NCBI RefSeq assembly: GCF_000316605.1
Contig: NC_019683.1
Location: 666,036 to 730,035, forward strand
Direction of reading: 5' to 3'
Length of the DNA stretch: 64,000 bases
Source: [Leptolyngbya] sp. PCC 7376
GTDB taxonomy: Bacteria > Cyanobacteriota > Cyanobacteriia > Cyanobacteriales > MRBY01
The stretch's first letter is position 1; each line of letters starts with the position of its first letter. The position numbers were made by a program, and so were the translations under genes. The notes beneath the pieces are model-generated. The model had not been told where the DNA came from and did no database searches. It was given only the letters and a program-made list of their open reading frames with translations. Shown here piece by piece: positions 35,777 through 64,000 of this stretch.

Positions 35777-36880
35777 ATGCCAAGTAAACCCACTGCCATT
35801 GAATCTCTCAGTCCAAGGTTTAAGCTGCTGCTCAATGATCAAGCGTTATCTTCTGATGAGCAAAAATCCCTTGAGTCCGATGTGCTGTCCATCAATGTTT
35901 CTGAGGATATCGATGCGATCAGTATGTTCGATGTGACGCTGGAGTCGTGGAATGAAAGTAAGCAGGAATTAACTTGGATTGAGAGCAAATTTTTTGAGCT
36001 GGGTAATGAAGTCGAGATTCAAATGGGCTTCGAAACAAAGCTCAAAACAGTTTTTATTGGGCAAATTACTGGTTTAGAACCGGAGTTTAATTCTACTGAT
36101 AACCCTAAGCTCGTGGTGCGGGGCCATGATCGACGGCATTTACTTCTACGCGGTAAAAAGACAAAATCTTTCGCCAAAATGTCCGACGCGGCGATCGCCA
36201 AAAAGATTGCGGAGACCCATGGTTTAACCCCCAAGGTGGTAGAAACAAAACCGAAAATCACCCTTGAATCGGTGTTGCAACATAATCAAACCGATTTTGA
36301 ATTTTTGCAAGATCGGGCACGTCGGATTGGCTATGAACTGATGGTGGAAGGAAAAGAATTACATTTTCGCCCCCATGCTAATGACGAGAAAGCTGTGCTG
36401 AAACTCAGCGCCAAAAAGGATTTGCTCGATTTTTCGCCACGCCTGAGCACCATGACTCAACTGCCCCAAGTGGAAGTGCGCGGTTGGTCGATGATGGAAA
36501 AAAAAGCAGTGATGGGAGTCGCCAACGCCAGCAAAGAACCCAGCAAAATGGGTGGTAAAGCATTAGGGGTTGACCAAACGAAAAAAGCATTCGGGAAGTC
36601 TGTCGAAAAAGGTAGCCACACCGTTGTGACTAGCCCTGTCTCCACCAAAGCTGAAGCCGATTTACTCGCCATTGGACAGCTCAAAGATATGGCGATCGCC
36701 TATATCACCGCTGAAGGAACGATCCAAGGATTAGGAGATTTGCGGGCAGGTAAGACAATCGAAATTACTGATGCAGGCACTAAATTTAGTGGGCTGTATT
36801 ACTTGACCTCTGTACAACACAGCTTTTCTGAAGACAACGGCTACGCAACCAAATTCACCGCGAGGCGCAACTCGACCTAA
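35777..36880 (+). CDS. CIS baseplate hub protein (gp27/gpD-like, N-terminal half of Pvc8)
   Basis: A 367-residue hub protein. Recognisable segments are ISMFDVTLESWNES, VEIQMGF...TVFIGQITGLEPEF, LVVRGHDRRHLLLRGKK, LQHNQTDFEFLQDRARRIGYE and the terminal LGDLRAGKTIEI and YYLTSVQHSF. These are shared with phage late-control gpD and the first domain of VgrG. In PVC the hub and spike are fused as one VgrG-like protein; here they are two adjacent genes. Confidence 0.9.
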   Translation: MPSKPTAIESLSPRFKLLLNDQALSSDEQKSLESDVLSINVSEDIDAISMFDVTLESWNESKQELTWIESKFFELGNEVEIQMGFETKLKTVFIGQITGLEPEFNSTDNPKLVVRGHDRRHLLLRGKKTKSFAKMSDAAIAKKIAETHGLTPKVVETKPKITLESVLQHNQTDFEFLQDRARRIGYELMVEGKELHFRPHANDEKAVLKLSAKKDLLDFSPRLSTMTQLPQVEVRGWSMMEKKAVMGVANASKEPSKMGGKALGVDQTKKAFGKSVEKGSHTVVTSPVSTKAEADLLAIGQLKDMAIAYITAEGTIQGLGDLRAGKTIEITDAGTKFSGLYYLTSVQHSFSEDNGYATKFTARRNST

Positions 36881-36929
36881 ATCTTATTCTTCATGCTCCT
36901 CTTCCCTGTTCTCTCACTCTTTCCTACCC

Positions 36930-37739
36930 ATGATTGGCCTAGACTTAATCGCCCTCGAACAACCCCAACAAAAGATTTACGGCATGGTCATTGGCATTGT
37001 CACAAACAACCAAGATCCTGAAAAGTTGGGGCGCATTAAGGTGAAATTTCCGTGGCTCACCAACGCGGAAGAAAGTAAGGAAGGGGCAGAAAGTGATTGG
37101 GCAAGGATCGTCACTCCGATGGCTGGAGGCGATCGCGGCATGTTTATTTTGCCGGAGTTGGAGGATGAGGTTTTAGTCGCCTTTGAGCAGGGGGATATCA
37201 GTCAGCCCTATGTGCTTGGGGCATTGTGGAATGGTGTCGATAAACCGCCCATAGAAAAAGATGAAGATGAAAAAAATGACTTGCGTGTTTTTAAATCTCG
37301 TAATGGTAATAAGGTGATTTTTGATGATGCAGAAGGCAAAGAAAGAATCGTCATCCAGGATAAATTAGGCAAAAATAAAATCGTCATTCAAGACACCATT
37401 ATGATCTTTAATGACAAGGCAAAAGAACTTAAAGATTTAGAACCCGATAAAGCACAATTTACCCTTGATGCTTCTGCCACTCCTGTGAAAATTACTGTAG
37501 GTAAGGACCAAGATTTTCTCATCGAAGGAACAGGTAATATTACGTTTCAAAATCCTGATAAAGACTTTGCAATCGAATGTAAAAATTTCACGCTAAAAAC
37601 CAGTGCTAACACTACCATTGAAGCTGGAGGTAATGCTGAGATTACTGGAGATAAAGCTGCCTTTGAAGGAAAATCTGGGATGGATTTGAAATGCTCCTCT
37701 GGCGTGAAAGTAAATAGTAGTTCTTTGGAGGTGAGTTAG
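36930..37739 (+). CDS. CIS spike protein (gp5/VgrG OB-fold and beta-helix)
   Basis: A 269-residue protein. The OB fold (about 15-100) has YGMVIGIVTNNQDPEKLGRIKVKFPWL, AGGDRGMFILPELEDEVLVAFEQGD and PYVLGALWNG, the gp5/gpV signature. The remaining residues alternate short strands with Asp/Lys/Thr (IEAGGNAEITGDKAAFEGKSG), consistent with a trimeric beta-helical needle. It is the puncturing spike below the hub. The PAAR-like tip is encoded near the end of the locus. Confidence 0.92.
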   Translation: MIGLDLIALEQPQQKIYGMVIGIVTNNQDPEKLGRIKVKFPWLTNAEESKEGAESDWARIVTPMAGGDRGMFILPELEDEVLVAFEQGDISQPYVLGALWNGVDKPPIEKDEDEKNDLRVFKSRNGNKVIFDDAEGKERIVIQDKLGKNKIVIQDTIMIFNDKAKELKDLEPDKAQFTLDASATPVKITVGKDQDFLIEGTGNITFQNPDKDFAIECKNFTLKTSANTTIEAGGNAEITGDKAAFEGKSGMDLKCSSGVKVNSSSLEVS

Positions 37740-38123
37740 ATGGATATTGATTTTCTCGGGGTCGGGTGGCGATCGCCTCTTATCCTCGAAAAAGGATCAT
37801 TCCAAACGGCTCGCTACGAAGCAGCTGTACAGCAATCAGTGTGGATGATTCTCAGTACTGCCAAAGGAGAGCGGGTGATGCGTCCCACTTTTGGTTGTGG
37901 CATCCATGACCGCGTTTTCTCGCCTAATAGTTCTGGCACTGTGGGTGAAATTGTTAACGATGTGCGGGAGTCTTTGACGGAATGGGAACCCCGCATTGAT
38001 TTACTGGATGTTGATACGACGGCTGATGAAGAAAACCCTAATGTTTTGTTGATTCGGGTGCATTATCAAGTGCGGACAACCAACAATATTTTTAATCTTG
38101 TTTATCCCTTCTATCTACAATGA
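37740..38123 (+). CDS. CIS baseplate wedge protein gp25-like (Pvc9/Cis9)
   Basis: A 127-residue protein with the gp25/lysozyme-like wedge signature: VQQSVWMILSTAKGERVMRPTFGCGIHDRVF, then ESLTEWEPRI and VHYQVRTTNN. gp25 nucleates sheath polymerisation on the baseplate. The ATG abuts the spike stop, and its stop overlaps the next ATG (ATGA). Confidence 0.93.
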   Translation: MDIDFLGVGWRSPLILEKGSFQTARYEAAVQQSVWMILSTAKGERVMRPTFGCGIHDRVFSPNSSGTVGEIVNDVRESLTEWEPRIDLLDVDTTADEENPNVLLIRVHYQVRTTNNIFNLVYPFYLQ

Positions 38124-41100
38124 CTTCTTCGCCACCAAAAATTGATCAACGGCGTTATGAAGATGTCGTTCAACAGCTCTGTTCTCTCACTGAGAGATAT
38201 ACGGCAGAGTTGCAGATTGTTGACGAATTGTTATTAGGAAAAGTTTTAGCTAAAGATGTTTTTGATAGTGAAGAGAATCTGATTATTTCAGCACATAAAA
38301 CAGTAGTGGAAGTTGCTAATGAAACGACACAAGTTGCACTAGATGATTTGCTAGAAAGCGGCATTGAAGAAGTTTGGATAAAGCGTTGGCATTCAGAGAA
38401 TATAGATGCTGGGAAAGCACTAATTCGGATTTTTGGAAATATGGTTGCGACGGTTAGCGATCGCCTTAATCGTGTGCCAGAGAAAAATTTCCTCAGCTTT
38501 TTAGATCTGATCGGCTCACAACTTAAACCCCCAGAAGCGGCAAGGGTTCCTCTGACATTTCAGTTGGCGGAAGGGACAAAAAGTGATGCTTTCGTACCGG
38601 AAAATACCCCTGTTGCAGCACCTCCCAGCGAAGATCAAGCTGATGAAATTATTTTTGAAACGGATCGTCCCCTCGTGTTGACTCCAGCCCAACTCCAAAC
38701 GGTATGGATGCAAGATCCACGTACCCAAACTTGGAGCGATCGCCTTTCTGCTGCCACTGGAAATACTAGTACTGCCTACGAAGCTTTTGCTGGAGAACAG
38801 AACGTTGCGCACCATCTCTATGTCAGTTGCCCAGAGATTTTTGCGTTAGAGGGATTGAAGGCGATCGCCCTAAAGATTACGAGTAAAAATAACACCCAAG
38901 CGAAACAACTTAAACAACTCAGTCCCACTTGGGAAACCTGGCAGTCAGGGGTGTGGCAAAGTCTCGAACCAACCCGCAATAATGTGCAATCGCGAATTTG
39001 GAATCTTGGCTTTACGGATGTGCCAACGCTAAAAACGACTACCTACCACGGGCAAACGGCACGCTGGTTACGGGCGACATTAACCGGACATCCTCAAAAC
39101 ACACCAATTATTAATGGCATTGACTGCACGGCAGAAATTGTCCGTGAGAATTTAATCCCCACCAAGGCTCTGAGTAATGATGTAGCGGTGGATTTGAGCA
39201 AAGATTTTTATCCGTTTGGGGAAGAGTCTGCCCTCAATGACGCATTTTACGTGCAGCTCCAAACTGAGTCGGTGCATCCTAATGGCAAGGTCACAGTTGA
39301 AATCGATCTCTCGGAGGCAAATGAAGTAACAGCTGCGGATGTGACAGTGCAATGGGAACTCGGTGATGGTTTGCAATGGCAAGCCGTGACCTTTTCGGAA
39401 GGTGATATTCAGTTTTATGGTGGTTTGAAACTCACTGCTACGCTCACCCTCCCTGAGACTTTGCCGGAACTGAGTACGGTCGATGGGGAAACGGGCTATT
39501 GGTTGCGAGCGAGAATTACGGAGGGCTTTTTTGGCATTCTTCCGAAGGCACGACGCTATCCGATTTATGATGAGTTGACTATTGTGGGAACCCAAGCCAA
39601 TATGGGTCGCAATCAAGTGGTGGTCGATAGTGCAGACATCCTTGAAGTGGGCGATATTGTGCGGCTGTATCCCATCACCACAGGGGAAACTTACCAATAT
39701 CCCGAAGAGCATGAAATTACGGCGATCGCCTACGACACGAAAACAATTAGCCTCGACACAAATCTAAAACAGACTTTGGCAGTGGGAACGCGAGTTTTAC
39801 GGAAAACCATTGCGAGTGAAACACCAACCCCGATCCATGAGCCACCCCAAGTGAAATTTATTCGGCTCAGCTATGATTTCGTGCTGACACAAACCGCAAC
39901 CATCGCCGCTGAAAATAATTTTGGGTATGCGATTGGCACGCCTTTTCAAACCCAACTTGCTCGCAGTGCTCAAGTGGGCGATCGCCATCTAGATTTAGAC
40001 AAGATCGATCATTTAGATGTGGGGGAAATTGTCACTACGCCCGACGCGAATTATCAAATTATTGGCATTATGCCCGCCGCGAAACGGCTTTTATTAGGTA
40101 AGGCGATCGCCAAATACACGCCAAAATATAGCGAGATTACAAGAGAATTTCGGCCTTTTGTGGGCATTGCTGAAACTGAACCAACATTGTATTTAGGTTT
40201 TAATCAACCGTTTAGCAACAACACAACGACCCTATATTTCCAGATTGACCCACCCGATCCCGATATGGAACCGGATTTCAGTGGAGATGCGCCACAACTG
40301 GTTTGGGAATATAGTAGTCCGCAGGGTTGGCAACGCCTCGGTGTGCAGGATGAAACGAAAGGATTTTCGCAACGAGGCATCGTTCAATTTATTGCGCCAG
40401 CGGATTTTTCTGTGTGGCGATCGCGGAATCAAGAACAAGCGTGGTTGCGAGTGCGATGGGTATCGGGAGCCTTTCCCATTCCACCTCAGATGCGCCGCAT
40501 TTTAACGAATACCACCTGGGCAAATCAGGCCACAACCCTTACATCTGAAGTGCTTGGTTCCAGTAATAACAACGCCGACCAAATTTTCTATACTCGCCAA
40601 ACTCCAGTGCTGATGGGCGAAACTTTAGGGGTGCAAGAGGATGAAATCCCGGAGCAATTGTTAGGGAAAGATTCTCTAAATATCGTTAAAAATGACCTCG
40701 GTGAAATCGAAGAAATTTGGGTAAAGTGGCAGGAAGTACCGGATTTCTATAGCTCACGATCAGGCGATCGCCATTACACCTTGGATCGACAGAGCGGCAA
40801 AATTCAGTTTGGGGATGGACAAGCGGGTTTAATTCCGCCAGCAGGGCAACAAAATATTAGATTGGCACGCTATCAAACGGGCGGTGGCACACAGGGTAAT
40901 ATTGCTGCCAATACGGTCACCCAACTGAAAACCACCATTCCCTATGTGGCGAGTGTGATCAATCTCGAAGCGGCAGGCGGTGGTGCAGAACAGGAAGCGC
41001 TGACATCATTAAAAGAACGTGCCCCCAAACAATTACGCCATCGTGATCGCGCCGTAACCTTACAGGATGTGGGCGATTTAGCCTATGAAGCCTCTACCGA

Positions 41101-41779
41101 AGTCGCCCGCGTGAAAGTCCTCACACCGGATTTACTCACACCGAATTTCAATGCGATTAATGAACAATTTTGGGTCGATCCTACTGAGGAATTTGCCGAC
41201 TTTGAAACATTGCTCGATAGCCAAGCCAAGAAAATCAATAGCAATGCAGAACGGGATTTATTGACCGCATCTCTACGCAATCTGCAAACCCAATGCGGTT
41301 CTGTGCAACTGATCGTGTTGCCCCAAAGTGGCGATCGCCGACCCACTGCAAGCCTTGGATTATTGGAAGATATTCGTACTCACATCGAAAATCGCGCCGA
41401 AGCGTCGATCAATGTGTTGATGGTTCCACCGCGTTGGCAGGAAGTGAAAGTTCGTGCGGAGTTGGTACCTGTCTCTCTCGATGAAGCTGATCGCATTAGT
41501 CAGGAAGTGTTGGAAAGATTAGACGAATTTCTCCATCCTCTAATGGGCGGAACTGAGGGCACTGGTTGGGAATTTGGTCGTTATCCCCATGATTCAGACC
41601 TCTATGCCCTCTTGCAATCTTTGCCGGAAGTGGACTTTGTGCGATCGCTCAATATCGAGTTAGTAGAGGCTGAAGGCAATGAAAATCAAGCATTGGGAGA
41701 CTTCGACGAAACGACTTTGATTTATTCTGGCCGTCACAATATCACCCTTGTTTCACCCCGAGGAGGACAATCCCGATGA
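38120..41779 (+). CDS. Large CIS baseplate J-family wedge protein (Pvc11/Cis11-like)
   Basis: A 1219-residue baseplate protein. The start [21 protein letters not shown] and the segment [29 protein letters not shown] are the normal N-terminal signature. Between them about 50 residues (approximately 29-80, [13 protein letters not shown]...[14 protein letters not shown]) look like an insertion. Four internal beta-rich domains follow. The baseplate-J core near 880-1190 has [56 protein letters not shown]. It forms the wedge ring that opens on triggering. Confidence 0.9.
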
Positions 41780-42738
41780 GCTTGCCATTACCAAACCTCG
41801 ATGATCGCAACTATGCCCAGCTCGTCGAAGAGGCGATCGCCCAGATTCCGGTGGAATATCCTGAGTGGACGGATCACAACCCCTCCGATACGGGTATTGT
41901 GCTGATCGAAATGTTGGCGTGGCTCACGGAAATGGTGCTGTATCGCGTCAATCAAGTCCCTGACCAAAACATTGCTAGTTTCCTGAGTTTGCTGAAGGGA
42001 GAACCCTATGAGCTACCCATTAATCTGACTCCTGACCAGCAACAGGAACATCTTCAAACCGAAATTCGCACCACCCTATCGCAGCTCCGTCAACGTTATC
42101 GAGCGATCACGACCCCAGATTTTCGTCATTTAATTTTGCATGAATGGACGCGTCAAGCCACTGCGACTGATCTCACAGTGCAACGGGTGAAATGTTTACC
42201 CCAACGTAATCTCACTTCCGTAACGCCCTATGAAACAGCGAAAAGTCATATCAGTTTGGTGATTGTGCCCAAACAAACAGAACAACTCACCGCCAATCCC
42301 CTTTCCCAAAATCCCCGCAAGCTATTTGAGTTTCTCGATGCTCGTCGCTTACTGACTACTCAATTGCATGTCATCACTCCAACCTATGTGGCGATCGCCC
42401 TGGAAACAAAACTGATTTTGCAAGACGGTAGCCAACCCGAAACTGTGAAAAAACGAGCCCAACAGGAACTGAGTTTATTTTTCCATCCCACCCAATCCGG
42501 TCGATATTGGCAAGGGAAAGGCTGGCAGTTTGGTCGTAGTGTCTATATCTCTGAGCTATATAGCCTCTTGGATCAGGTCGAAGGCGTTGATTATGTTAGC
42601 GAATTAATCTTGCGAGATGCTGAGAGCAATGACGTTCAAGAAGTTACCTTGGCACCCGATCAACTAGTCGAATTCACCCTAGAAAGGAGCCAAATTTCAA
42701 CAGTTGTCCAAGTGGGCAATGAAACTCGCGAGATTTAA
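41776..42738 (+). CDS. Second CIS baseplate J-family protein (Pvc12/Cis12-like)
   Basis: A 320-residue protein starting [41 protein letters not shown], the standard gp6/Pvc12-like opening, with [19 protein letters not shown] next. The C-terminal half has [40 protein letters not shown]. It pairs with the larger J protein as the wedge heterodimer. Its ATG overlaps the upstream stop (ATGA). Confidence 0.9.
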
Positions 42739-42759
42739 TACACCACTCATTAAAAACTG

Positions 42760-44349
42760 ATGACGCTCAACTCAAACCAGCCCAATAGCCAATACATTAA
42801 TTATCTACCTCCAGTACTTCAGGAAGATCAATTGCTGTCGCAGTTTCTGTTGAGTTTTGAGCAAGTTCTTACAGGTTTTGAAACAGCACCTCAAGCTGCC
42901 TCAATCATTACATCTGATACCGTTTCACCGCCGGGCTTAGAAAGTATTCTCGATAATATTCATCTGTACTTTAGCCCCCAAGAAACACCTTCAGAATTTC
43001 TGCCATGGCTAGCGGGATGGGTTGGCTTAAGCCTACGAGATGAATGGGATGTAAGAGTTAAACGAGAATTTATTCGGCAGGTTATTTCTCTCTATCAATT
43101 GCGTGGCACAAAAATTGGCTTAGAAAAAGTCTTAGCCTTGTACTTAAAGAACTCTGGCTTTGGCGATAAAGTCAAAGTTTTTGAACATTTTGAACATTTG
43201 CCTCATTATTTCCAAGTTCAGCTAACTTTACCCGACCGCGACCCAGAAAAATATTGGCGGCAAGCTCGCATTGCCAAGGCAATTATTGACCAAGAAAAAC
43301 CAGCTCATACCTATTACACGCTGAAAATTCTTGTGCCGACGATGCAGATCACAAAGGATGTGCAGCAATATTTCAGCTTTACGCTTATTGATCCGCCTCA
43401 AAAACGAGTTTTCAATCTGACTGTGACGATTACGCCCGATGCTAAAAACCCCGAAAAAGATCTGAATTGGATTGCTCAACAATTAAAAATTCACTTCGAT
43501 AATGGAATTGAATCAATTAGATTCCCGACTCGTAAAACCATCATTCAAGATGAATCCTTTGCACTGGAATTTCAAACGACACATCAACAATTCTTGAAAT
43601 CTCTTGATGGTTTTAAATTGACTATTTCCAACCAAACCGATAGTAAATTTATGGGGACGATCGCCGTTGACGTTAGTTACCAACTTAATCGTCAGAATGT
43701 AACCAACCGCATCTATACAGAGCAGCTCAACCTCAATCCAGTCCTACGAATGGTCGATTCTAAAGATGGTCGAGGAAGTAGCGTTATTTATGGCGATCGC
43801 GATCCTGCTGGCCTGATGATTACTGATGCGATAGAAGCTGAGCCGATTCCATTCTACTTATTCGATGATCCTGAAAAGCAAGTTTTTACGATTGATACTC
43901 GTATTATCGTCGAATCCGCTATCGAAACCGTGAACCAAGATGATGAATCCATCGAGCAACCTGTCGAAATTACGCGAGATTTAATGTTTAAACTTGGGGC
44001 GACAATTCGTGAGCAAAACTCTAATAGTTATTTATTAAGTTCTCGCCCAAATATTGAAAATAATATTCTCTCTTTTCAGAAAGTTGTAACTCATGAACAA
44101 TTTCTCAAGACTGTCGAAGGTTATCAACTTAGATTGAAAAATCTTAGCCTTAAACAGCTGTCTGGAGAAGTACAGATTGATGTGTCATTTCAATTGAATA
44201 ACGAAACTGTAACCCATCGGATCCTTACACAATCCTTTAACCTTGCTGCCCTAGGAGAATATGATCGAATGCAAATTTGTCAACGAAATGAAGCTGGTGA
44301 AATCATTGCTGGCAACACTATCCTAGGAACCACGAGTCAAGCTATTTGA
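42760..44349 (+). CDS. CIS tail protein I-like baseplate component with repeated C-terminal domains
   Basis: A 529-residue protein. Residues 1-190 (YINYLPPVLQEDQLLSQFLLSFEQVL, PSEFLPWLAGWVGLSLRDEWD, RQVISLYQLRGTKIGLEKVL) match phage P2 protein I-like tail/baseplate domains. The remainder contains two copies of a related beta-rich module, one near 265-330 (HQQFLKSLDGFKLTISNQT) and one near 445-510 (HEQFLKTVEGYQLRLKNLS), both with DVS-FQLN-type strands. These may be docking sites for the fibre encoded next. Confidence 0.8.
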   Translation: MTLNSNQPNSQYINYLPPVLQEDQLLSQFLLSFEQVLTGFETAPQAASIITSDTVSPPGLESILDNIHLYFSPQETPSEFLPWLAGWVGLSLRDEWDVRVKREFIRQVISLYQLRGTKIGLEKVLALYLKNSGFGDKVKVFEHFEHLPHYFQVQLTLPDRDPEKYWRQARIAKAIIDQEKPAHTYYTLKILVPTMQITKDVQQYFSFTLIDPPQKRVFNLTVTITPDAKNPEKDLNWIAQQLKIHFDNGIESIRFPTRKTIIQDESFALEFQTTHQQFLKSLDGFKLTISNQTDSKFMGTIAVDVSYQLNRQNVTNRIYTEQLNLNPVLRMVDSKDGRGSSVIYGDRDPAGLMITDAIEAEPIPFYLFDDPEKQVFTIDTRIIVESAIETVNQDDESIEQPVEITRDLMFKLGATIREQNSNSYLLSSRPNIENNILSFQKVVTHEQFLKTVEGYQLRLKNLSLKQLSGEVQIDVSFQLNNETVTHRILTQSFNLAALGEYDRMQICQRNEAGEIIAGNTILGTTSQAI

Positions 44350-44399
44350 TCTATCGAATTTATTAATTTCTTTTCTGTTTTTTTAGGAGTACAAAACCA

Positions 44400-46811
44400 A
44401 TGCCTGCTAAGCAAGATTTTACGAACTTTGCCACCGAGCGACCGAATTATTTCCCTGGTCAATTTCTCCTAGAAGATGATTTTGAACTTCAGCATAAATA
44501 CCTCGGCGATCGCCAAACTTATCATAATCAAAGTTTGCAGGTTTCAGGCATCCTTGAAGGCTTGGAAGTTACACCAATCAAAGATAAAAAAGAAGTGGAA
44601 ATTGCTGCTGGTACAGCGATTGATAGTGCAGGTAATCTACTAGTCTTAAAAAATAAACTCAATTTTTCTGGTTTTGGGGAGCTGACCAAAGGCACTTTAT
44701 TTATTCAATTCATTCAAGAGAAAACTAATAAACAACAGGAAGAAATCGCCGAAAGCTTTACTCGCTGGACAGAAAATATTGTTGTCGGCATTGCTGAAAC
44801 GCTAACCGACGAGGCGATCGCCTTATGTAGCTACGAAACTATTGGCGATGACGAAGTCCGAGTAGACAGCGCTATCAGTGAATATTCCGGTGTCTATCTT
44901 CCCAATGCCACTAACCAAAATTTATCGCTACGCTCCGGCGGTACGGCAAACCCTAGCCTCGCTGTTTTAAATGGCAGTCTCAAAGTAACTGGCGATGCTG
45001 AAACTCTTGGGAATCAAGCAATTGGTCAAAATCTGGATGTAGCTGGAAAAGTGGCAATCGCCTATGAAAGCCAAGATGCAGACGGCGATGCTTTGACAAT
45101 TGGTTCCACCTTACGGCTAGGACATAACCTTCAATATGGCTGGGTACAATCTCACGGCGGCAAGCCCTTAGCTGTCAATCCTCTTGGTAACAACGTTGGT
45201 ATCGGCACAACAGATCCACAAGATATTTTAGAAGTTGTCGCCTCAAGTAGTGGTAAAGCATTGACATTACGAGGTAAGCCAGATGCCACATCACCGATGC
45301 TGACATTTGCGAATCCAGACAATCCACAAACTACCGTCATCACCCCAAGAGATAGCGACATTCTCAACATTGAGTATGGCTCTACCACACCTCTAAAAAT
45401 TGAACAGTCAGGCAAAGTCACAATTCCCGGAGAGATTTCCGCAGGCAATAAATTGACAGTTGCTGAAACATTAAACCTTGACGGCGCTAAACAACTTATC
45501 TTTAGCGATGCAGATACCAGTAATAATCTCAAGGTGCAATTGTGGTCTGGCTATGGACTAGGCATTAATAGTGACACATTATTTTATGCTGCTGATGGTA
45601 ACCACTCATGGCGTAATAAAGATGGTGTTACTGAACGCATGAAATTAACGACCGCAGCTGGAGGAGGCCTTGCTGTCTATGGCACTGGAGATTCATCATT
45701 TGCTGGCAACCTAAGCATTAGTAAAACATTAACTGTTTCTGGAAGCACAGCAGTTAACGGAAATTTGACAATTAGTGGCGAGGCCTCCCTTGGCTATGAG
45801 GTTGCGGTGACGAACTTTGGTGCGAAACTTAGTTCCGGTTTTTACGAAAACAGTGGCGATCCTAATGCAGTAGGTGATGTCCCGGATACTAGTCATACTT
45901 GGAGCCATTTAATAAATGCGCGTCATAGTAACCGCAACAATAACAATCAGCTCCAAATTGCAGCTTCCTATGCTGTAAATGATCGCCTATTTTTCCGGAA
46001 AATCTCAGCATCTGGAACCAATAATCCAAGCTGGAATGAAGTTGCGACAAGAGGTACCAATACTTTCACTGGACAACAAATATTTCAAAATACGATAAGT
46101 GGTGCTCCAGAAGGCTACATCAAAGCACAATTTGTTTTGAGTGGCGGTGGAGTCGTTTCTTGGGGGGGGATTAATGGACGCTTGAAATGGACACAAAGGT
46201 TCATTGCGATCACAATGCAAAAGTCGACATTCTTCCCGGCTGGACATATCAATATTACTCAACCCACAACCAGTATCCCGAAGAGTAATGTCCATGATGG
46301 CAAAGCACGGTCAGCGACGGCAGCAGGGGTACTGCTTAAAGATTGGGAAGCTTTATATGCAGTTCACACGGTTAAAGGTGATCAATCAGCCGTTTCCTAT
46401 CGGATTGTTTATTACAACAAAAATTTCAATCCGCCGAGTAACTGGATTCTTGTTGCTGTTGTGAATAATGATAATGGCTCAATTAAGTTAGGTAGTGGTC
46501 AAATTATTCATAAAGCCCAACGAAATGATTTTGTGATTGCTGGTTTTGTGAACTCAACTGGCACTATCGTTGGTGGTAGTGGTTTTACGGCAAGAAGAAG
46601 AAGTAAGGGATTATATGACATTACTTTTACTCGCCCATTTTCGACTCGACCTGCAATTGTTGCTGCACAGCATAATGGGGATGGTTCTAACACCAGAGAT
46701 AATGCCATTGTGACTGTTATTAATGCGGGTAATTGTCGGATTAAAACTGGTGACGGTAATGGGAATGCAAGCGATCGCCACTTCTGTTTCTTCTGTATGG
46801 GAGCGGTTTAA
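44400..46811 (+). CDS. CIS tail fibre with C-terminal H-type lectin domain
   Basis: An 803-residue fibre. The N-terminal 150 residues (RPNYFPGQFLLEDDFELQHKYLGDRQTYH) are the baseplate-attachment domain seen in CIS fibres. The middle is a beta-helical shaft of Gly/Asn/Thr-rich repeats with phage-fibre phrases such as NVGIGTTDPQDILEV. The last 70 residues (GLYDITFTRPFSTRPAIVAAQ...ASDRHFCFFCMG) resemble an H-type lectin, a sugar-binding trimer. This is the likely receptor-binding or surface-contact part. Confidence 0.85.
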   Translation: MPAKQDFTNFATERPNYFPGQFLLEDDFELQHKYLGDRQTYHNQSLQVSGILEGLEVTPIKDKKEVEIAAGTAIDSAGNLLVLKNKLNFSGFGELTKGTLFIQFIQEKTNKQQEEIAESFTRWTENIVVGIAETLTDEAIALCSYETIGDDEVRVDSAISEYSGVYLPNATNQNLSLRSGGTANPSLAVLNGSLKVTGDAETLGNQAIGQNLDVAGKVAIAYESQDADGDALTIGSTLRLGHNLQYGWVQSHGGKPLAVNPLGNNVGIGTTDPQDILEVVASSSGKALTLRGKPDATSPMLTFANPDNPQTTVITPRDSDILNIEYGSTTPLKIEQSGKVTIPGEISAGNKLTVAETLNLDGAKQLIFSDADTSNNLKVQLWSGYGLGINSDTLFYAADGNHSWRNKDGVTERMKLTTAAGGGLAVYGTGDSSFAGNLSISKTLTVSGSTAVNGNLTISGEASLGYEVAVTNFGAKLSSGFYENSGDPNAVGDVPDTSHTWSHLINARHSNRNNNNQLQIAASYAVNDRLFFRKISASGTNNPSWNEVATRGTNTFTGQQIFQNTISGAPEGYIKAQFVLSGGGVVSWGGINGRLKWTQRFIAITMQKSTFFPAGHINITQPTTSIPKSNVHDGKARSATAAGVLLKDWEALYAVHTVKGDQSAVSYRIVYYNKNFNPPSNWILVAVVNNDNGSIKLGSGQIIHKAQRNDFVIAGFVNSTGTIVGGSGFTARRRSKGLYDITFTRPFSTRPAIVAAQHNGDGSNTRDNAIVTVINAGNCRIKTGDGNGNASDRHFCFFCMGAV

Positions 46812-46834
46812 AGCAGTATTCACAACAATAAATT

Positions 46835-47266
46835 ATGGGCGATTTTATTGTCATTACGGGTGATCAGGCAATGTTTGATGGGTCTTCTTTTGGGGATGCG
46901 AAAGTTATCGCACCACCAGGGATTATGTCAGGCAAAGGCAAAGCTAAAATTACAGGGAAGCCTGTCTGTATCGATGGGGATGAACTCATGGTTGTGGTGC
47001 CAGGCTGTGTTTATACAACGTCGAAATGTACGATTCCCGGTAGTGGCACTTTATTTATCAAGTCTTTGGCAGGTGATCAAAAGGCAAAAAAAGTAAAGTC
47101 GGGTGGTAAGCCTGTGATTCTGAAAGGGTCACAATTTGATGCCAAATTTATGGTTCTAGTTCCTGCAATGCAACCATCTGCACCCAGTCCTATTCCCGAT
47201 ACGATGTTGCAGTATATGGGTAAAGGTTCGTTTCAAACGACAAATTCAAAGGTTAAGGGTTCCTAA
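46835..47266 (+). CDS. PAAR-like spike-tip protein (Cis10-like)
   Basis: A 143-residue protein with the segments GDQAMFDGSSFGDAKVIAPPG, ITGKPVCIDGDE, VPGCVYTTSKCTIPGSGTL and GGKPVILKGSQFDAKFMVLVP. Short strands between Gly/Pro turns with conserved cysteines match PAAR-like proteins that cap the spike. It would sharpen the tip encoded at 36930. Its position after the fibre instead of after gp25 is an arrangement found in some CIS loci. Confidence 0.8.
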   Translation: MGDFIVITGDQAMFDGSSFGDAKVIAPPGIMSGKGKAKITGKPVCIDGDELMVVVPGCVYTTSKCTIPGSGTLFIKSLAGDQKAKKVKSGGKPVILKGSQFDAKFMVLVPAMQPSAPSPIPDTMLQYMGKGSFQTTNSKVKGS

Positions 47267-54940: not shown

Positions 54941-55701
54941 GGCGTTGGTGAATTGAGGTATGAATCTATGAGGGTCGAGGGATAGGAACATCCCAGAACT
55001 TGAGATAGTGAATCAGCAATCGAATCGAATGCTCTAACATTTCCACAGACTTTGAATAACATAAGGTCTTTCGATGGAGTCGAGCGAGATAATGCCGCAA
55101 TCGAGTGTTCTCTCCTTCGACTCGAGTCATATAGGTCTTACTGATAATCTGGTCCCCATCGGGTACAAAGATGGGATAAACTTTCCAGCCATCTGTGACG
55201 TAAAAGAAGCATCTCCAGAGACTAACGATTGCCCATAGTGGCTTGAATGTCTCTGCACTTCTGTCACCAATAGTCCAAGCAAGAATACCTGGTTGAAAGT
55301 GGTCTACTGCTGTCCAGAGCCAGACCTTGTTTTTTTAGCACCGACGAATGTTTGAAGTTCATCGAGTTCCCCGACCTGAGGCATCTCTTCCGGTTCATAA
55401 GCATCAGGCAGCAATGCACCGACTTGTTTGACCCAAGTGATGACGGTAGTGTGGTGCACTCCTTTCACCCGTTCAATGGCTCGAAAGCCCATACCGTTGA
55501 CATACATTTTGAGGCATTCACGTTTGAAGGCATTTGAGTAGCCGAGCTGACTATAGTGGTCGATAAACTGACGACCGCAATCTACACAGATGTGATTCTG
55601 TTTGCCTTTTTTCTTTCCGTTCTTACGGATATGAGTAGATTGGCATTCTGGACATTCCATTGAGTCAACAACCTCCATTCATACCTCTATTCTGCAACGC
55701 C
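54941..55701 (-). mobile_element. IS1-family insertion sequence with perfect 8-bp target duplication
   Basis: A 761-bp element with imperfect inverted repeats of about 25 bp (54941-54965, 55677-55701; outer sequence GGCGTTG). The octamer TCAATTTG occurs on both sides (54933-54940 and 55702-55709), the size of duplication IS1 makes. Its two transposase frames are intact. It therefore inserted recently, between the LysR gene and the nitroreductase gene. Confidence 0.93.
54966..55678 (-). CDS. IS1-family transposase with A7 slippery site
   Basis: Frame 1 (ATG at 55678, or 55660, to 55304) encodes the InsA zinc-ribbon (CPECQ...CVDCGRQF) and helix-turn-helix with GVHHTTVITWVKQVG. Frame 2 encodes the InsB' DDE domain (VWLWTAVDHFQPGILAW, YVTDGWKVYP, EGENTRLRHYLARLHRKT) and ends at the TAG at 54966-54968. 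The frames overlap at a run of seven A on the coding strand (55330-55336), the expected place for -1 frameshifting. Different from the IS1 at 16110. Confidence 0.88.
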
Positions 55702-57042: not shown

Positions 57043-60000
57043 TTACTTCTCTGCAAGTACTCTTCTAAGAAGCGCTCTCACATCGTAAACAGTTGGATTC
57101 CCCGCAGGATCATTTGCCATAAGCTGCTTTTGAAGTTTTGGCTGATTCCGTGTTGCTGTAGAGCGAGTGCTGGCAGAATTACTGTCATATAGCTCAAACA
57201 TATTGGTATAACCCAATAACTGCTGACCTGTTTGGCTCTTGAAGCCACGGCAGTAAGGGACTGTATTTTCTCCAAATACCTCTAGATATTCTGCACTGTT
57301 GGTATAGGAATCAATATCCGCTGCATAACTTTCATTATCAAGGGTATTGCTATGGGCAACAGTCTCGCTATAGTCGGCAGGTGCGCGACCTAACAAGTGT
57401 AAGAAGTTAAGTTCATGGGCACGGTAGCGAGGGCTTGAGGAGATAAAGAGTGATTGATACAGATCGGATTTTGCGAGTGCATTCACAAATTCACGGACTG
57501 TAATCTCATTATTTTTGAGCTTGGACTCTAAAGTCGTCAGGCGCTCACTCTCCATAAGATGAACGTTTCCAAGGACTTGCTTGTAGATCGCGCTAATGAC
57601 GAAGTCAGCTTCTTGAGCTGTGCTATTAGGTGAAAGTGTGACTGGCTCTGTCTTTGCGATAGTGTTTGCCTGATTTTCCCAAATGCTAGCTCGTTGCTCA
57701 GCAGACATGCCTCGGTAAATTGTCGCTTTATAGCTGCTTTCACCTGTATAGGCGCGGAATTGAATACCAGTGTCCTCAACAGGAATGATTGGATCAACTG
57801 CAGGAGGTTGATCCGCACTGTCTCCAGCAAAATAAAGATCGAAGGTCGTTACTTCTCCTTGGTTGACAGAGAGGCCAGAAATATCTTTGATTTCATTTTG
57901 GCGATCGCCCAACAATGCTTGATCGAGTTCTGCATAAGCACCGCGGCTGATCGATTTGTCACTAGCAGAAGCACCACGCATGACTTGATAGGCATGTGTA
58001 TATCCAGTCATGGATTGCCCTGTTTGTGTTTCGTAGCCACGGAAATAAGGCACGATATAAGACCCAAAATTCTCGATATATTCATCGCTATCGAGATAGG
58101 AGTTGATTTCAGCAGTATAGCCATGCTCAACAATTAATTGAACATGGGCTGAAATCTCAGCATAATTCTCTGGGGCGCGACCGAGTAGATGTTTGAAATT
58201 CAACTCAACTGCTTTAACGTTATTGCCTTTTTCGAGGAATAGGGCACGATAACGATCTGATTGAGCTAATGCTCTCACGAAGTCCCGAACAGAGATTTGG
58301 CCACTCGTGAATGCTGACTCTAACTGTGGAGATCGCTCGCTCTCCATTAAATATGCATTGCCGAAGACTTGCTTATAGACCGCTTCAACAACAATACTCG
58401 CTTCCTCTGCTGAGCAACCAGGAATATATTCGAGTGGAGCAATTCCTGCAAACGCTTTGGTGTAAGGATCACTAATCGAAGGGATGCGTGAATCACATTC
58501 AAGCTCAACGACAGTCGATTTAATCGTTTTGGCTAACTCAAAATCTGTGGAGTTGAATGGAATAGGAACATTGATTTTGGGTGTTGCTAATAACGCTTTT
58601 GTGAGAATAGTGCGTTGACTTCCTTTCATTGTTGCGCCGACGGTGCGATCGCTACCAGAAGCGCCACTCATCAAATCGAAGAGACGATTATAGCCCGCGA
58701 CATTTTTGCCAGTTTGGCTGGAATAGCCCACATAATAAGGAACTGTGTCATCACCAAAGTTTTGAAGATATTCTTCGCTATCAAAGTAAGACTTCAATTC
58801 TGCGGCAAGACCTTCCTGTTCCAGAATCGCGAGATGAGCTGCAACTTCTTGGAAATCGTTAGGAGCGCGACCAAGGAAATGCTTGATATTTAGTTCGACA
58901 GCTCTAGCATTGGTGCAGTCATCGAAGAAGAGCGAGCGATAATGCTCAGACTGTGCCAGCTGACCAATGAATTCTCGTACCGTAATATTGCCTTGGGTAA
59001 GTTGGGATTCAGCAGTGAGCGATCGCTGGCTTTCCATGAGATGGACATTACCGAAGACTTGCTTATAAGCCGCACGAATAACAATGTCAACTTCTCCAGT
59101 GCCTGCACCGGAATATAACTTAACTGGTTGGCTCTTGCGGGCTGCAGGGAATGCAGCAGACGCTTCACGAGCTTGATATTGCTGTAACCATGTCGTAGGG
59201 GAAACGCTAGTACTTGCCTGGGCGGACTGTGACGATCCCGCAAAACGCTCAGGATTGTAGCCTAGTGTTGTCAAATCAAGATCCTGAAACTCTGCGTCTA
59301 GATCAACACTCTTTACTGGAGTCGTTAAAGGAACAGAATCAGGAACACTAGATAAAGGCGAGATAGCTGTTGCTTGATTACTCAGAACAGCACTTTGCAA
59401 TTGAGGAGAGGCTGGATCTTCTACCGATTTATCACTACTAGAGGCTCCTCTGAGCATCTGGTAAGAATGGGTATAGCTGGTTAAAGTCTTACCTGTTTGG
59501 CTGGCATAGCCACGGTAATAAGGTACAAACGCCGAGCCAAAATTCTGATAGTATTCATCGCTATCGAGATAAGAATCAATCTCAGCTTCATAGCCCTCTT
59601 CTGCCAAAATTTGGATATGTTCAGAAATCTCAGCAGAATTCTCTGGGGCACGACCTAGTAGGTGTTTGAAATTTAGTTCAATTGCCCGTAGATTTGTGCA
59701 ATTGTCAAAAAATAAAGTCCGATACCGATCAGACTTTGCTAGCACACGAATAAATTCTAAGACGCTGATACTGCCATTGCGGAGCTGTGACTCAGCATAA
59801 GCAGAACGTTCACTGTCCATGACATGGGCATTACCAAAGACCTGTATGTAAGCAGCCCGAATCACTACATCCGCATTATCTCGAGACCTAGGGTTAACGA
59901 GTTCTACCGCCTCAACATCAGCAAAAGCATTGAGATATTTATCACTGACTTCTGTCGGTTGAGGAGGCAACTCACGAATTGGCTCCTTCGCTTTAGTTTT

Positions 60001-60108
60001 CTTCTCTTCTCTAACGACTAGAGTTGCTGCTAAATCAAAACCATCTGGATTGAATTTTGTCCGGTTATTCTTGAGCAGTGCAGGACGAAATAACGCATTA
60101 TTGATCAT
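57043..60108 (-). CDS. Giant phycobilisome rod linker with four PBS-linker domains
   Basis: A 1021-residue linker of about 112 kDa. Four PF00427-type domains are evident near 79-227, 339-490, 567-719 and 832-985, each containing [VI][IV]xAxYxQV[FL]GN-HxMxSER, NF/NIKHLLGRAP and VPYYRGY-SQTGK-like blocks. Separators of about 80-120 residues are disordered. There is no N-terminal allophycocyanin-like domain, so it is not ApcE, and no CpcD-type capping domain at the C-terminus. Ordinary rod linkers have one such domain. Multi-domain linkers of this kind are known from Gloeobacter, where they bundle rods. It is transcribed toward a terminator and lies next to the phycoerythrin bilin genes, so a phycoerythrin-rod role is likely. 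Confidence 0.88.
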   Translation of the reverse strand: MINNALFRPALLKNNRTKFNPDGFDLAATLVVREEKKTKAKEPIRELPPQPTEVSDKYLNAFADVEAVELVNPRSRDNADVVIRAAYIQVFGNAHVMDSERSAYAESQLRNGSISVLEFIRVLAKSDRYRTLFFDNCTNLRAIELNFKHLLGRAPENSAEISEHIQILAEEGYEAEIDSYLDSDEYYQNFGSAFVPYYRGYASQTGKTLTSYTHSYQMLRGASSSDKSVEDPASPQLQSAVLSNQATAISPLSSVPDSVPLTTPVKSVDLDAEFQDLDLTTLGYNPERFAGSSQSAQASTSVSPTTWLQQYQAREASAAFPAARKSQPVKLYSGAGTGEVDIVIRAAYKQVFGNVHLMESQRSLTAESQLTQGNITVREFIGQLAQSEHYRSLFFDDCTNARAVELNIKHFLGRAPNDFQEVAAHLAILEQEGLAAELKSYFDSEEYLQNFGDDTVPYYVGYSSQTGKNVAGYNRLFDLMSGASGSDRTVGATMKGSQRTILTKALLATPKINVPIPFNSTDFELAKTIKSTVVELECDSRIPSISDPYTKAFAGIAPLEYIPGCSAEEASIVVEAVYKQVFGNAYLMESERSPQLESAFTSGQISVRDFVRALAQSDRYRALFLEKGNNVKAVELNFKHLLGRAPENYAEISAHVQLIVEHGYTAEINSYLDSDEYIENFGSYIVPYFRGYETQTGQSMTGYTHAYQVMRGASASDKSISRGAYAELDQALLGDRQNEIKDISGLSVNQGEVTTFDLYFAGDSADQPPAVDPIIPVEDTGIQFRAYTGESSYKATIYRGMSAEQRASIWENQANTIAKTEPVTLSPNSTAQEADFVISAIYKQVLGNVHLMESERLTTLESKLKNNEITVREFVNALAKSDLYQSLFISSSPRYRAHELNFLHLLGRAPADYSETVAHSNTLDNESYAADIDSYTNSAEYLEVFGENTVPYCRGFKSQTGQQLLGYTNMFELYDSNSASTRSTATRNQPKLQKQLMANDPAGNPTVYDVRALLRRVLAEK

Positions 60109-60393: not shown

Positions 60394-60969
60394 TTAGCGT
60401 CGTGAGAATTGCTGAAGTTGGGTGAGTAAATGATCAAAGGATTGGGCGAACTTAATATCTACATCTTTTTCGACATAGGAGAGGCTAACGGTCTTTAAAC
60501 CTTGTATGCCGCAGAGCATTGCTGGCAGCGGAACCTTTAACTCTTGATAAAGCTGCTCCATAAAACCGAGTCCGGCTTTACTTGTGTAGTCCGTACGATC
60601 TGTGGTGATGCCATAGGTGACACAGCGTAAAAAATGCCAGAAATCCCGCCAGCAGGCATCTGCCCGAAAGGCTGGGTATAACTCACCTCCTTCGTCGGTA
60701 ATTCCTGGAAATTCAGCGAGAACGTTGACCCGAGCCTGAGACACAATGTTTGTGGCGTTGTCCCGTAGTGATTTGGCGATCGCCGCGGACTTTTCCAGAC
60801 TGGGCGCAGCTTGCAAAATCACCTCAAAATCAGCATCAGTTAAATATCGACTTTCATCATCTGCTGCTTGAAACACCGCAATTAGTTCCGGTGGGTAACT
60901 ATCAGTCCATGTTTCAAAACTGACAATGCGCGCTTTGGTAATAAGTTCCTTTACCTTGGGGCTTAGCAT
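60394..60969 (-). CDS. Phycobiliprotein-like protein downstream of pebB
   Basis: A 191-residue globin-like phycobiliprotein homologue. The helical pattern and the segment ADACWRDFWHFLRCVTYGI, with Cys106 in the place of the bilin-binding cysteine-82/84, are those of PF00502. The rest is divergent from CpcA/ApcA/CpeA. A strong ribosome-binding site (CAGGAGG) starts it and it follows pebB after 15 bp. It may hand bilin to apoproteins, act in assembly or be a minor antenna subunit. The operon position with the two bilin reductases favours a bilin-handling role, by inference. Confidence 0.75.
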   Translation of the reverse strand: MLSPKVKELITKARIVSFETWTDSYPPELIAVFQAADDESRYLTDADFEVILQAAPSLEKSAAIAKSLRDNATNIVSQARVNVLAEFPGITDEGGELYPAFRADACWRDFWHFLRCVTYGITTDRTDYTSKAGLGFMEQLYQELKVPLPAMLCGIQGLKTVSLSYVEKDVDIKFAQSFDHLLTQLQQFSRR

Positions 60970-60984: not shown

Positions 60985-61731
60985 CTAGGCGGCGATCGCC
61001 AACTTTCTTTCGAGGTCAAACAAAAAGCCGTGGATATATTCTTCCGTCCACTCAGCACCATAGAATCTAGTCAACATTCCCCGTGCTGGATCCTTCTCTG
61101 CTCGATAATTTACGTAACTGAGTTGTGCCTCTTTGATTTTTTCTAATGACGGTCGATCAGTAACAGGTTCGGCTGCCTCAACCAAATCAAGATAAGCATT
61201 GAGATAATCTTTGAATGCCCCAAATACATGAGTCTCTACCGCATCGGGAGCGGTCGGTCTTGTCCAGAGAAATGCGGGAGAAAAATACGCCTTTGCTTCC
61301 TCCGGGAAATCGCCACCCCAAGGCAAATCCTCTTGGTATTTTTCGAAGATGGGCATTACTGGATCGCTATAACGGGCGCGATACTCATCTGTGTGAAAGA
61401 GTGGCTGCATATCAATTGCAATCAGTGGACCACCAGGTAAGGTCACCAAATCCGCGCCAAAAAAGGGTAAATCATACTTGAGGTCAGGAAAAATCACGAA
61501 ATTCAAGACCTGACAAGCCATGCCACCTTCAACGTGAGCCGCTCGAATTTGCCGTAATTTCTCGGTGCGAAAACCATGGCTCGTGGTGACCACATGGGCT
61601 TCCCGTTTTCCTTTTCCCACCGTTGCTTCATTACGATCAAACCCTTCTGGAATCGGATAAGGCTCTAAATCTGGCAGGCGATCGCCCATCACTTTTTCCG
61701 CATAATCAAGAAAAGGCTGATAAATAGACAT
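60985..61731 (-). CDS. pebB: Phycoerythrobilin:ferredoxin oxidoreductase PebB
   Basis: About 248 residues from the ATG at 61731, which gives [13 protein letters not shown]. An earlier start at 61791 adds a hydrophobic, non-conserved leader. FDBR-family motifs are [59 protein letters not shown] and [25 protein letters not shown]. It reduces 15,16-dihydrobiliverdin to phycoerythrobilin using ferredoxin. It follows pebA in the same direction. Confidence 0.93.
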
Positions 61732-61841
61732 TTTAAAAAATTTTATAAAGTGAAATAGATAATAAAAATTGCCCAAAAATAAAAAGGGCAAGAAGAAAAA
61801 AGTGAAAGCGTTAGCAAATTTTGAAGATAGGGAACCGCAAA

Positions 61842-62624
61842 TTAAACATTAGCTGTTTGTTCTGACTCTGACTCTGATGCTGAATCCGTCTCAATTTCTG
61901 CCTTTGCCGACTCTGATGGAGTGGACTCTTCAAACAAAAACTCATGTAAAAATTGCTCAGACCACTCATGTCCGAAATAGCTATTAAACAAACCAGCTGC
62001 TGGATCTCGATCCGCACTGTACTGGTCATAATCTTTGTGCGCCTGAGTGATTTTGGCAATCCGCTCTGGATCATCTGTGGGCTTCAGATTCTTCAGCATG
62101 GTGCAATACAGATCTAAATACTCTTTAAATGCGGGCAATAAACTGTTCACTACCGTATCCGCATCTGTCTTCGCAAAAAGTAGATAAGGAGAAAAATATT
62201 GTGCCGCATCATAGAAACGCATCGGTAAATCCTGCGCCAACTCGTCATAGCGATCGCGAATTGCCTTAACGGGCTCAATGTACTTCTCCATATAACCTTC
62301 ATCTCGAAAGAGAGGCTGGAAGTCGAGCACCACTAAAATTTTCTTTTGACCAAACGCAAGAAAATCAATCCCAAGCAACGGCATATCGTAACCATAGGAA
62401 GGATAAAGCACACTATTAAAGATCTGTGCCATCTTACCTGCGTTGATATATGTGTAGCGAATCTTGCGAAGCTCCGGCGACTGATAACACCAACTTTCGA
62501 TCATCGCTGGATTTTTGCCGCGCTTGCTCATCTGAAACTCGAGTTCAGGGTCAATTGGACGACTCTTTAGCTCGAAGCGGCTAAATAACTCTTGCTCTAA
62601 ATGTCTAAGAAAAGGCTGAAACAT
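61842..62624 (-). CDS. pebA: 15,16-dihydrobiliverdin:ferredoxin oxidoreductase PebA
   Basis: A 260-residue FDBR-family enzyme. [49 protein letters not shown] and [29 protein letters not shown] distinguish it as PebA. It makes dihydrobiliverdin from biliverdin, the first step before PebB. The C-terminal 25 residues are an acidic Ser/Glu-rich extension beyond the usual end. The gene is the first of the pebA-pebB-phycobiliprotein-like unit and is divergent from cpeB. Confidence 0.93.

Positions 62625-63544
<920 letters not shown>

Positions 63545-63596: not shown

Positions 63597-64000
<404 letters not shown>

Follow-up and report, generated by a model that had tools for sequence, protein, structure and literature searches.

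A four-domain rod-type phycobilisome linker encoded beside phycoerythrin genes in [Leptolyngbya] sp. PCC 7376

We describe a rod-type phycobilisome linker of 1021 amino acids with four complete PF00427 domains, encoded in a 64,000-nucleotide stretch of [Leptolyngbya] sp. PCC 7376 (contig NC_019683.1; the whole stretch is called the window). Its architecture is conserved in other hosts, its gene lies in a phycoerythrin cluster, and close matches to it are statistically associated with phycoerythrin. Our analysis makes it rather probable that the protein is a phycoerythrin-associated multi-hexamer linker, which would tie four hexamers side by side and would have been fused from rod-linker lineages of crown cyanobacteria.

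Four linker domains in one protein

The open reading frame (57043..60108, minus strand; 1021 amino acids counted from the ATG) matches the Pfam family PF00427 with a whole-protein E-value of 5.4e-186 and 608.6 bits, above the curated cut-off of 28.7. The match divides into four stretches, all on the minus strand: D1 (residues 75-199; 59512..59886), D2 (58732..59097), D3 (58039..58413) and D4 (57247..57618). Taken singly, the domains score 152-169 bits each and cover nearly the whole profile. They are spaced at 261, 230 and 263 residues, with approximately 134, 102 and 136 residues between repeats. Single-domain rod linkers (CpcC, CpeC/D/E) have one PF00427 domain and a CpcD-type end (PF01383), which grips the next hexamer; the window linker has four of the former, and neither PF01383 nor the phycobiliprotein domain PF00502 is found in it at E ≤ 0.1. 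An earlier note, made from the letters of the window, had read the protein in the same way, as four complete domains with no ApcE-like part and no CpcD-type end, and Pfam, which returns no fewer than four domains, agrees with it on each point. None of the NCBIfam models listed in our searches names multi-domain rod linkers. In the AlphaFold model, four folded blocks (pLDDT about 45-82) are separated by low-confidence arms; the model, built from three rows, is of low overall quality (mean pLDDT 45, pTM 0.26), and Foldseek gives Glr1262, ApcE and CpcN as its top matches.

The neighbouring gene (60394..60969, minus strand) encodes an orphan allophycocyanin-like protein (PF00502, 191 amino acids) in which the aligned bilin cysteine is present. 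Beyond it, at higher coordinates, lie pebB (phycoerythrobilin:ferredoxin oxidoreductase; 60985..61791, minus strand), whose true start is probably within this frame, and pebA (15,16-dihydrobiliverdin:ferredoxin oxidoreductase; 61842..62624, minus strand). Divergent from these are cpeB (phycoerythrin beta; 62984..63544, plus strand) and a phycobiliprotein gene that leaves the window edge (63663..64000, plus strand), which we read as cpeA. The host genome further encodes CpcG-, CpcL- (three), CpcC- and CpeC/D/E-type linkers, named by sequence reading, which make up an ordinary-looking set, together with an ApcE-type frame with three repeats. The CpcG-type linker (L016) takes its name from a near-full-length match to the NCBIfam CpcG1 model, with scores below the exception-model cut-offs. 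An ApcE-type gene and further CpeC/D/E-type linkers, which the earlier note had suggested looking for, are thus present. Given this normal set, any altered phycobilisome would be an addition to the normal one.

Relatives of the linker and its proposed role

Among 388 sampled genomes of the order, 28 contain a close match to the linker. CpeB is found in 26 of these, compared with 165 of the 388 overall (Fisher p-value about 1e-8, with genomes treated as independent of kinship). The searches scored single stretches, so the numbers give only a minimum for multi-domain linkers as a whole; a Glr1262-like protein (L033), with a best stretch of 1e-46, fell under the cut-offs used. Six genomes of the window's own genus were searched at E ≤ 1e-62, and the only match is in the window's genome; close relatives can therefore do without the linker. 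Three plasmid records gave partial matches, none of which reached 80% query coverage.

Relatives with all four domains intact are encoded by an uncultured Xenococcaceae cyanobacterium, by Leptothoe kymatousa TAU-MAC 1615 and by several further genomes; two-domain relatives (about 600 amino acids) are more frequent, and two genomes, including Xenococcus sp. PCC 7305, have a related protein of about 2000 amino acids with seven domains. The L. kymatousa gene lies between cpeC/D/E-type linkers (named as above), and this genome also encodes a three-domain linker. In another genome (G593) the gene adjoins a rod linker and cpeBA. One genome (G892) has a shorter, three-domain protein of 751 amino acids that lacks D4; a two-domain linker of 544 amino acids is encoded separately after it. 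The stop behind domain 3 is the ordinary end of the 751-amino-acid protein, and not a break in a four-domain gene. A two-domain linker of 538 amino acids in a further genome (G257) reads as having a CpcD-like end and may be of the MpeD type.

We propose that each PF00427 domain would occupy the hole at the centre of one rod hexamer, most likely of phycoerythrin and possibly of phycocyanin, and that flexible arms of roughly 100-140 residues would join the four hexamers laterally, as a bundle or a staggered chain. CpeC/D/E-type linkers with CpcD ends could extend each hexamer into a rod, and the linker might alter the shape of the phycobilisome.

The arms would presumably also be long enough for the four domains to enter four successive hexamers of a single rod, in which case the protein would replace four linkers and fix the rod length while the hemidiscoidal shape is kept. 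The domains are of the rod type, D4 falls in the CpeC-type group (see below), and the L. kymatousa gene sits inside a run of rod-linker genes, all of which is consistent with such a backbone. However, the PF01383 end that would take hold of the next hexamer is absent. Furthermore, the solved Gloeobacteria linkers of the CpcN and Glr1262 kind, as described in PMC10696076 and PMC12525769, place each domain in a different hexamer and link the hexamers into a staggered chain or a three-rod bundle. We therefore regard the single rod as unlikely, and favor the lateral arrangement.

The partner of the linker could instead be a phycocyanin rod or the photosystem I side, its nearness to phycoerythrin genes being incidental. 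In Xenococcus sp. PCC 7305 a CpeB match is absent although the seven-domain relative is present, so phycoerythrin is not a requirement for the domain family; the host has the three CpcL-type linkers; and one four-domain gene (G780) is away from cpe genes, with no probed cpe, peb or cpcB and no other linker gene in the 19 kb examined around it. Against this stand the CpeB association, uncorrected for kinship as it is, and the cpe neighbourhoods in the window, L. kymatousa and G593, which leave the phycocyanin or photosystem I reading quite improbable and make phycoerythrin the likelier partner.

Domain ancestry and other multi-domain linkers

In a domain tree, D1-D4 are spread over at least three rod-linker lineages. 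D1 and D3 form a group with single-domain linkers that have no recognised CpcD end; D2 groups with the D2 of the other four-domain proteins and with domain 3 of the seven-domain protein; and D4 groups with CpeC-type linkers and the second domains of two-domain linkers. Only D4 is inside the CpeC-type group. All four are among the rod linkers, apart from the ApcE and CpcG-type domains of the host, and outside the Gloeobacteria multi-domain clade (Glr1262, Glr2806, CpcN). AU tests, which used only 132 columns and groups defined post hoc from the first tree, rejected placing all domains of five four-domain proteins with the Gloeobacteria clade (p-value 5e-6), and did the same for the window domains (D1+D3, 0.0125; D2, 0.0181; D4, 0.0099). 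A simple tandem duplication of one domain was also tried as an origin, and the 20 domains of the five proteins as one clade were rejected (p-value 2e-6).

The best-scoring PDB sequences for the linker are CpcN (five domains; 700 bits in total), Glr2806 and Glr1262 (three each). It is natural to ask whether the window linker is a relict of the ancestral, thylakoid-free multi-domain linkers, an orthologue of Glr1262, CpcN or CpcJ. Since its domains fall outside the Gloeobacteria clade and the AU tests (132 columns, groups post hoc) reject a joint grouping, we ruled out orthology to Glr1262 and CpcN, and a relict in general is very improbable. The comparison with Gloeobacter made in the earlier note stands for the best solved sequences and does not extend to the ancestry of the domains. 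ApcE and ApcH are other PF00427 proteins with multiple domains, and a core-type scaffold of their kind, connecting allophycocyanin cylinders, is likewise very improbable: in the tree, which contained the ApcE repeats of the host but not ApcH, D1-D4 stand with the rod linkers and away from those repeats, and the linker has no PF00502 domain, whereas ApcE has a phycobiliprotein domain.

The likenesses to the Gloeobacteria linkers are in architecture: like Glr1262, Glr2806 and CpcN, the window linker has at least three PF00427 domains of the rod type. The two Gloeobacter violaceus proteins, Glr1262 and Glr2806, have similar spacing to the window linker (272 and 265 residues in the Glr1262-like L033, versus 261, 230 and 263). 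CpcN (five domains) and CpcJ (two) of Anthocerotibacter panamensis also have PF00427 in tandem, and the CpcN spacing of about 221-232, in a register that we set, resembles that of the window linker. PMC10696076 describes CpcN as having no CpcD-like domain. However, Glr1262 and Glr2806 have their own domain clade, and Glr1262 takes the place of CpcG (PMC12525769), while the host of the window linker retains a CpcG-type linker. CpcN likewise belongs to a separate domain clade, and works with phycocyanin hexamers, its host having no thylakoids. The window linker would act like Glr1262 (bundle) or CpcN (chain), with a separate origin by fusion of crown-cyanobacterial rod-linker lineages.

Multi-domain linkers are already known in crown cyanobacteria. 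MpeD of marine Synechococcus, a phycoerythrin linker, unites linker domains of the PEII and CpeD types in one protein (PMC2246261); compared by description only, it is a fused linker like ours but has just two domains. The Leptolyngbya CpeC-like linkers U9W1D6 and U9W8A0 are multidomain, with about three domains and a function described as unclear, and such linkers have been attributed to duplication and fusion inside individual hosts (PMC11976284). Like the window linker, they come from a crown cyanobacterium and contain several linker domains, and, judged by description only, they are possibly of one kind with the four- and three-domain linkers of Leptothoe. The window-type linker differs in its four domains, their fixed order across distant hosts and their at least three lineages. 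These precedents go beyond the earlier note, which names multi-domain linkers only for ApcE and Gloeobacter. Our literature search found no close homologues described in ordinary hemidiscoidal phycobilisomes, PMC11976284 mentioning the multidomain CpeC-like linkers.

It is tempting to speculate that crown cyanobacteria re-invented multi-hexamer linkers: two or more rod-linker lineages would have fused once and been passed on vertically or sideways, the product holding hexamers of phycoerythrin (or phycocyanin) in bundles and giving the antenna a shape as yet unseen there. We hold this broader scenario as a tentative one, somewhat short of even chances. If true, chain- or bundle-building linkers are not just relicts limited to Gloeobacteria, and the separate domain ancestry of the four- and seven-domain linkers would imply more than one evolutionary origin of such scaffolds. 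In contrast, PMC12525769 and PMC10696076 treat multi-domain rod linkers as a Gloeobacteria peculiarity, the former calling Glr1262 and Glr2806 unique to Gloeobacter and the latter stating that crown cyanobacteria are without ApcH and CpcN homologues. The four-domain order common to distant hosts also qualifies the remark in PMC11976284 on origins within individual hosts.

Composition, promoter sites and terminal segments

At 0.446, the GC content of the linker gene matches the 0.445 of the window, which gives no argument for transfer from composition. Promoter-like sites around the gene show no excess (11 found; shuffle mean 11.3), and the CcaR-type box, which we take to be CTTTNCNATTT, has no match anywhere in the 64,000-nucleotide window. 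At the C-terminus, a helix is predicted at residues ~1007-1020 (57049..57090, minus strand) with low model confidence, and is partly conserved in relatives. The N-terminal segment (residues 1-30; 60019..60108, minus strand) is conserved, with the pattern INN-LFRP...KFNP-GFDLA, and a similar motif reappears ahead of D3.

A four-domain linker and its likely action

The window linker, a protein of 1021 amino acids, is encoded on the minus strand at 57043-60108. PF00427, the linker domain, is its sole Pfam-A family above the cut-off and occurs in four stretches (E 5.4e-186), with single-domain scores of 152-169 bits, each spanning nearly the whole profile; the repeats, here D1 to D4, start at residues 75, 336, 566 and 829. 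Neither the phycobiliprotein domain (PF00502) nor the CpcD-type end (PF01383) was found at E ≤ 0.1. Pfam-A thus confirms the earlier note's description of four complete linker domains with neither an ApcE-like phycobiliprotein domain nor a CpcD-type end. An AlphaFold2 model from a three-row alignment is weak overall (mean pLDDT 45, pTM 0.26) and shows four folded blocks and low-confidence arms. Its first Foldseek matches are Glr1262, ApcE chains and CpcN, a result that on so weak a model is meaningful for domain-level resemblance only.

In known structures, PF00427 domains fill separate hexamers (PMC12525769, PMC10696076). With its three domains, Glr1262 fixes the bases of three rods in a triangle (PMC12525769); the five domains of CpcN form a staggered chain, each with a CpcD that is thought to block rod growth (PMC10696076). 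As judged from its sequence, the window linker has the anatomy of these Gloeobacteria proteins: several rod-type domains, arms of approximately 100-140 residues and no CpcD end. By analogy, it would most likely tie four hexamers, probably of phycoerythrin, side by side, with ordinary linkers lengthening each rod. That it is instead a backbone inside one rod is the weaker alternative.

Relatives and domain ancestry

A scan of genome contigs gave nine named loci. Two encode intact four-domain proteins, in an uncultured Xenococcaceae (1003 amino acids) and in Leptothoe kymatousa TAU-MAC 1615 (984 amino acids), a third, in Aphanocapsa lilacina, encodes a three-domain protein (824 amino acids), and the remaining six have only single-domain linker ORFs within the stretch fetched. 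Since the Aphanocapsa protein groups with the PDB Glr1262 in our domain tree, this record, despite its taxonomy name, probably comes from a Gloeobacter-like organism. Xenococcus sp. PCC 7305 has a seven-domain protein of 2007 amino acids, and L. kymatousa has, besides its four-domain linker, a second one with three domains (782 amino acids).

The domain tree contains 79 domains over 132 columns, with 24 of its 76 inner branches open; Xenococcaceae 310, Leptothoe 273 and Xenococcus CpcC were left out. D1 and D3, which the tree does not separate from each other, group with single-domain linkers without CpcD (279, 303, 309 and 414 amino acids; support 91/85), as do repeats 1, 2 and 4 of the seven-domain protein. 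D2 groups with the D2 of four other four-domain proteins and with seven-domain repeat 3 (97/85). D4 groups with the D4 of the other four-domain proteins and with repeat 7 (99/91), and this group sits inside a larger one (99/92) that also holds CpeC-type linkers and, from two-domain proteins, second domains as well as two first domains. Because D2 and D4 group by position across distant hosts, the tree favours a single fused ancestor that spread either vertically or sideways over a separate fusion in each host.

The Gloeobacteria domains form a group of their own (100/97). Joining them was rejected for window D1 and D3 together (AU p = 0.0125), D2 (0.0181), D4 (0.0099) and all domains of the five four-domain proteins (5e-6). 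These rejections are good but not final, because the tests were set up with the first tree already seen and the alignment is short. Of the tree comparison proposed in the earlier note, all four domains have now been set against single-domain and Gloeobacteria linkers; a grouping with the latter did not emerge.

PMC11976284 describes multidomain proteins that resemble CpeC in Leptolyngbya, with about three domains, and CpcC in Gloeobacter; it calls their function unclear and infers that they arose in individual hosts by duplication and fusion. According to PMC2246261, MpeD is a chimera of two linker domains. Multi-domain rod linkers are not named in PMC4417701, nor in the passages covered of PMC9415938 and PMC6811547, and a search of titles and abstract beginnings, with subscription journals mostly outside it, gave none devoted to rod linkers of four or seven domains from crown cyanobacteria. 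As far as these searches go, the new features are the conservation of the four-domain order across distant hosts, the existence of a seven-domain form, the mixed domain ancestry apart from Gloeobacteria and a counted link to phycoerythrin.

Several variant linkers were seen among the relatives. G892, a genome of the class sample, carries at L148:4377-8479 (-) a three-domain version of the window linker (751 amino acids, without D4), then a separate two-domain linker (544 amino acids) that begins like the single-domain linkers adjoining other four-domain genes. A C-terminal tail that ends with a variant of LNKWRSR, in some cases preceded by a second LNKW, is common to two-domain linkers of approximately 600 amino acids (L104-L107, L109-L111, L113, L114, L117, L121, L123) and single-domain linkers of approximately 315-357 amino acids (L108, L112, L115, L116, L118, L120, L122, L124, L125); it also occurs in the host's L001 (as LGKWR) and the seven-domain protein. 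In Xenococcus sp. PCC 7305, a 414 amino acid single-domain linker (L098:7613-8857, -) has an ApcG-like C-terminal tail, weakly matching the PDB ApcG-like chain LPP2 (E 0.011), and may be a fusion of a rod linker with an ApcG-type anchor. A separate 186 amino acid protein (L034:7854-8414) gives a stronger match to ApcG-like chains (E 1.8e-7, LPP2) and by eye also has the N-terminal stretch; a similar-looking tail in G585 has no PDB match.

Distribution and association with phycoerythrin

With the window protein as query (E ≤ 1e-62), 28 of the 388 genomes in the order sample match, the window's included. Four have four domains (the window, G519, G585, G593), two have seven (G426, with match coordinates identical to those of Xenococcus PCC 7305, and G572, 2009 amino acids), 12 have two, and 10 have one domain in the matched ORF, the frame in G424 running beyond the stretch. 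The class sample gave 11 matches in 388, again including the window's. Seven belong to one family (six in the genus of G901, whose coordinates are those of L. kymatousa, plus G892), and five of the seven have four complete domains; in G905 two are in view and the frame runs beyond the stretch. The other three matches have one domain (G190) or two (G257, G865). At E ≤ 1e-90, a cut-off that recovers four- and seven-domain relatives as a positive control, only the window's genome matches among 386 in an evenly drawn phylum sample. Both cut-offs miss a Glr1262-like protein (best stretch 1e-46), and one genome may appear in more than one sample.

Is the linker associated with phycoerythrin? Of the 388 order genomes, 165 carry CpeB (NF058508 over its cut-off); among the 28 with a close linker match, the count is 26 (Fisher p about 1e-8, kinship ignored), and among multi-domain genomes, with the window left out, CpeB is present in 15 of 17 (p = 9e-5, kinship ignored). 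The association is strong, though not strict, since G584 (76% complete) and G426 (99% complete, with a seven-domain protein) are exceptions; G572, the other seven-domain genome, has CpeB.

Gene context agrees in part. In L. kymatousa, by our own reading, cpeC/D/E-type linkers stand on either side of the gene, and CpeS/T/R-like genes and cpeBA follow downstream. The G593 gene has as neighbours a rod linker, cpeBA and a small ORF that reads as CpcD-like. Two rod linkers flank the gene in G785, and single-domain linkers adjoin it in the Xenococcaceae genome and G585. For G780, the 19 kb fetched contained none of the probed cpe, peb or cpcB genes and no other linkers.

The host locus and its other linkers

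Upstream of the window linker, also on the minus strand, lie an orphan allophycocyanin-like gene (60394-60969), pebB (60985-61791) and pebA (61842-62624); cpeB and then cpeA, the latter by reading of the sequence, run divergently from 62984. G005, of the window's genus, shares the order of cpeA, cpeB, pebA, pebB and the allophycocyanin-like gene, with a cytochrome-like gene (by eye) in place of the four-domain linker, and none of the five members of the genus searched besides the window's host has a match at E ≤ 1e-62. The linker is therefore either a gain in this species or a loss in the others, between which GC content does not discriminate.

The host's single-contig genome has 18 PF00427 domains: four in the window linker, three in an ApcE-type frame of 896 amino acids and 11 single. 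By length, tails and context, we read the 11 as three CpeC/D/E-type, one CpcC-type, one CpcG-type, three CpcL-type and three without a CpcD end (342, 279 and 303 amino acids). The NCBIfam CpcD model backs the CpcD end in all three CpeC/D/E-type linkers, one weakly; that of the CpcC-type linker was read by eye and is not among the model's matches, and the exception-type CpcG models fall below cut-off on the host linkers. The apcE and cpe linkers that the earlier note suggested looking for elsewhere in the genome are thus present, as typed here, and we infer from this set that the host holds the parts of an ordinary phycobilisome, with a three-cylinder core by repeat count. The three CpcL-like linkers (L003, L015, L018) have hydrophobic C-terminal tails by eye, and one sits within a cpe-type linker cluster.

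The orphan allophycocyanin-like protein adjoining pebB has the bilin cysteine aligned (CWRD) and no NCBIfam equivalog over cut-off. Such a protein occurs in 11 genomes, counting the window's, out of 40 searched, and also in the phycoerythrin regions of the fetched stretches L039 and L033. Near each of the genome's two phycoerythrin-related loci is a short transposase-like ORF, and the two ORFs resemble each other closely (window 55304-55678, -; L093:14962-15336, +). Elsewhere in the window, a row of large plus-strand ORFs occupies 33384-47266, and the small plus-strand ORF at 46835-47266 gives the impression of a PAAR-type spike-tip protein.
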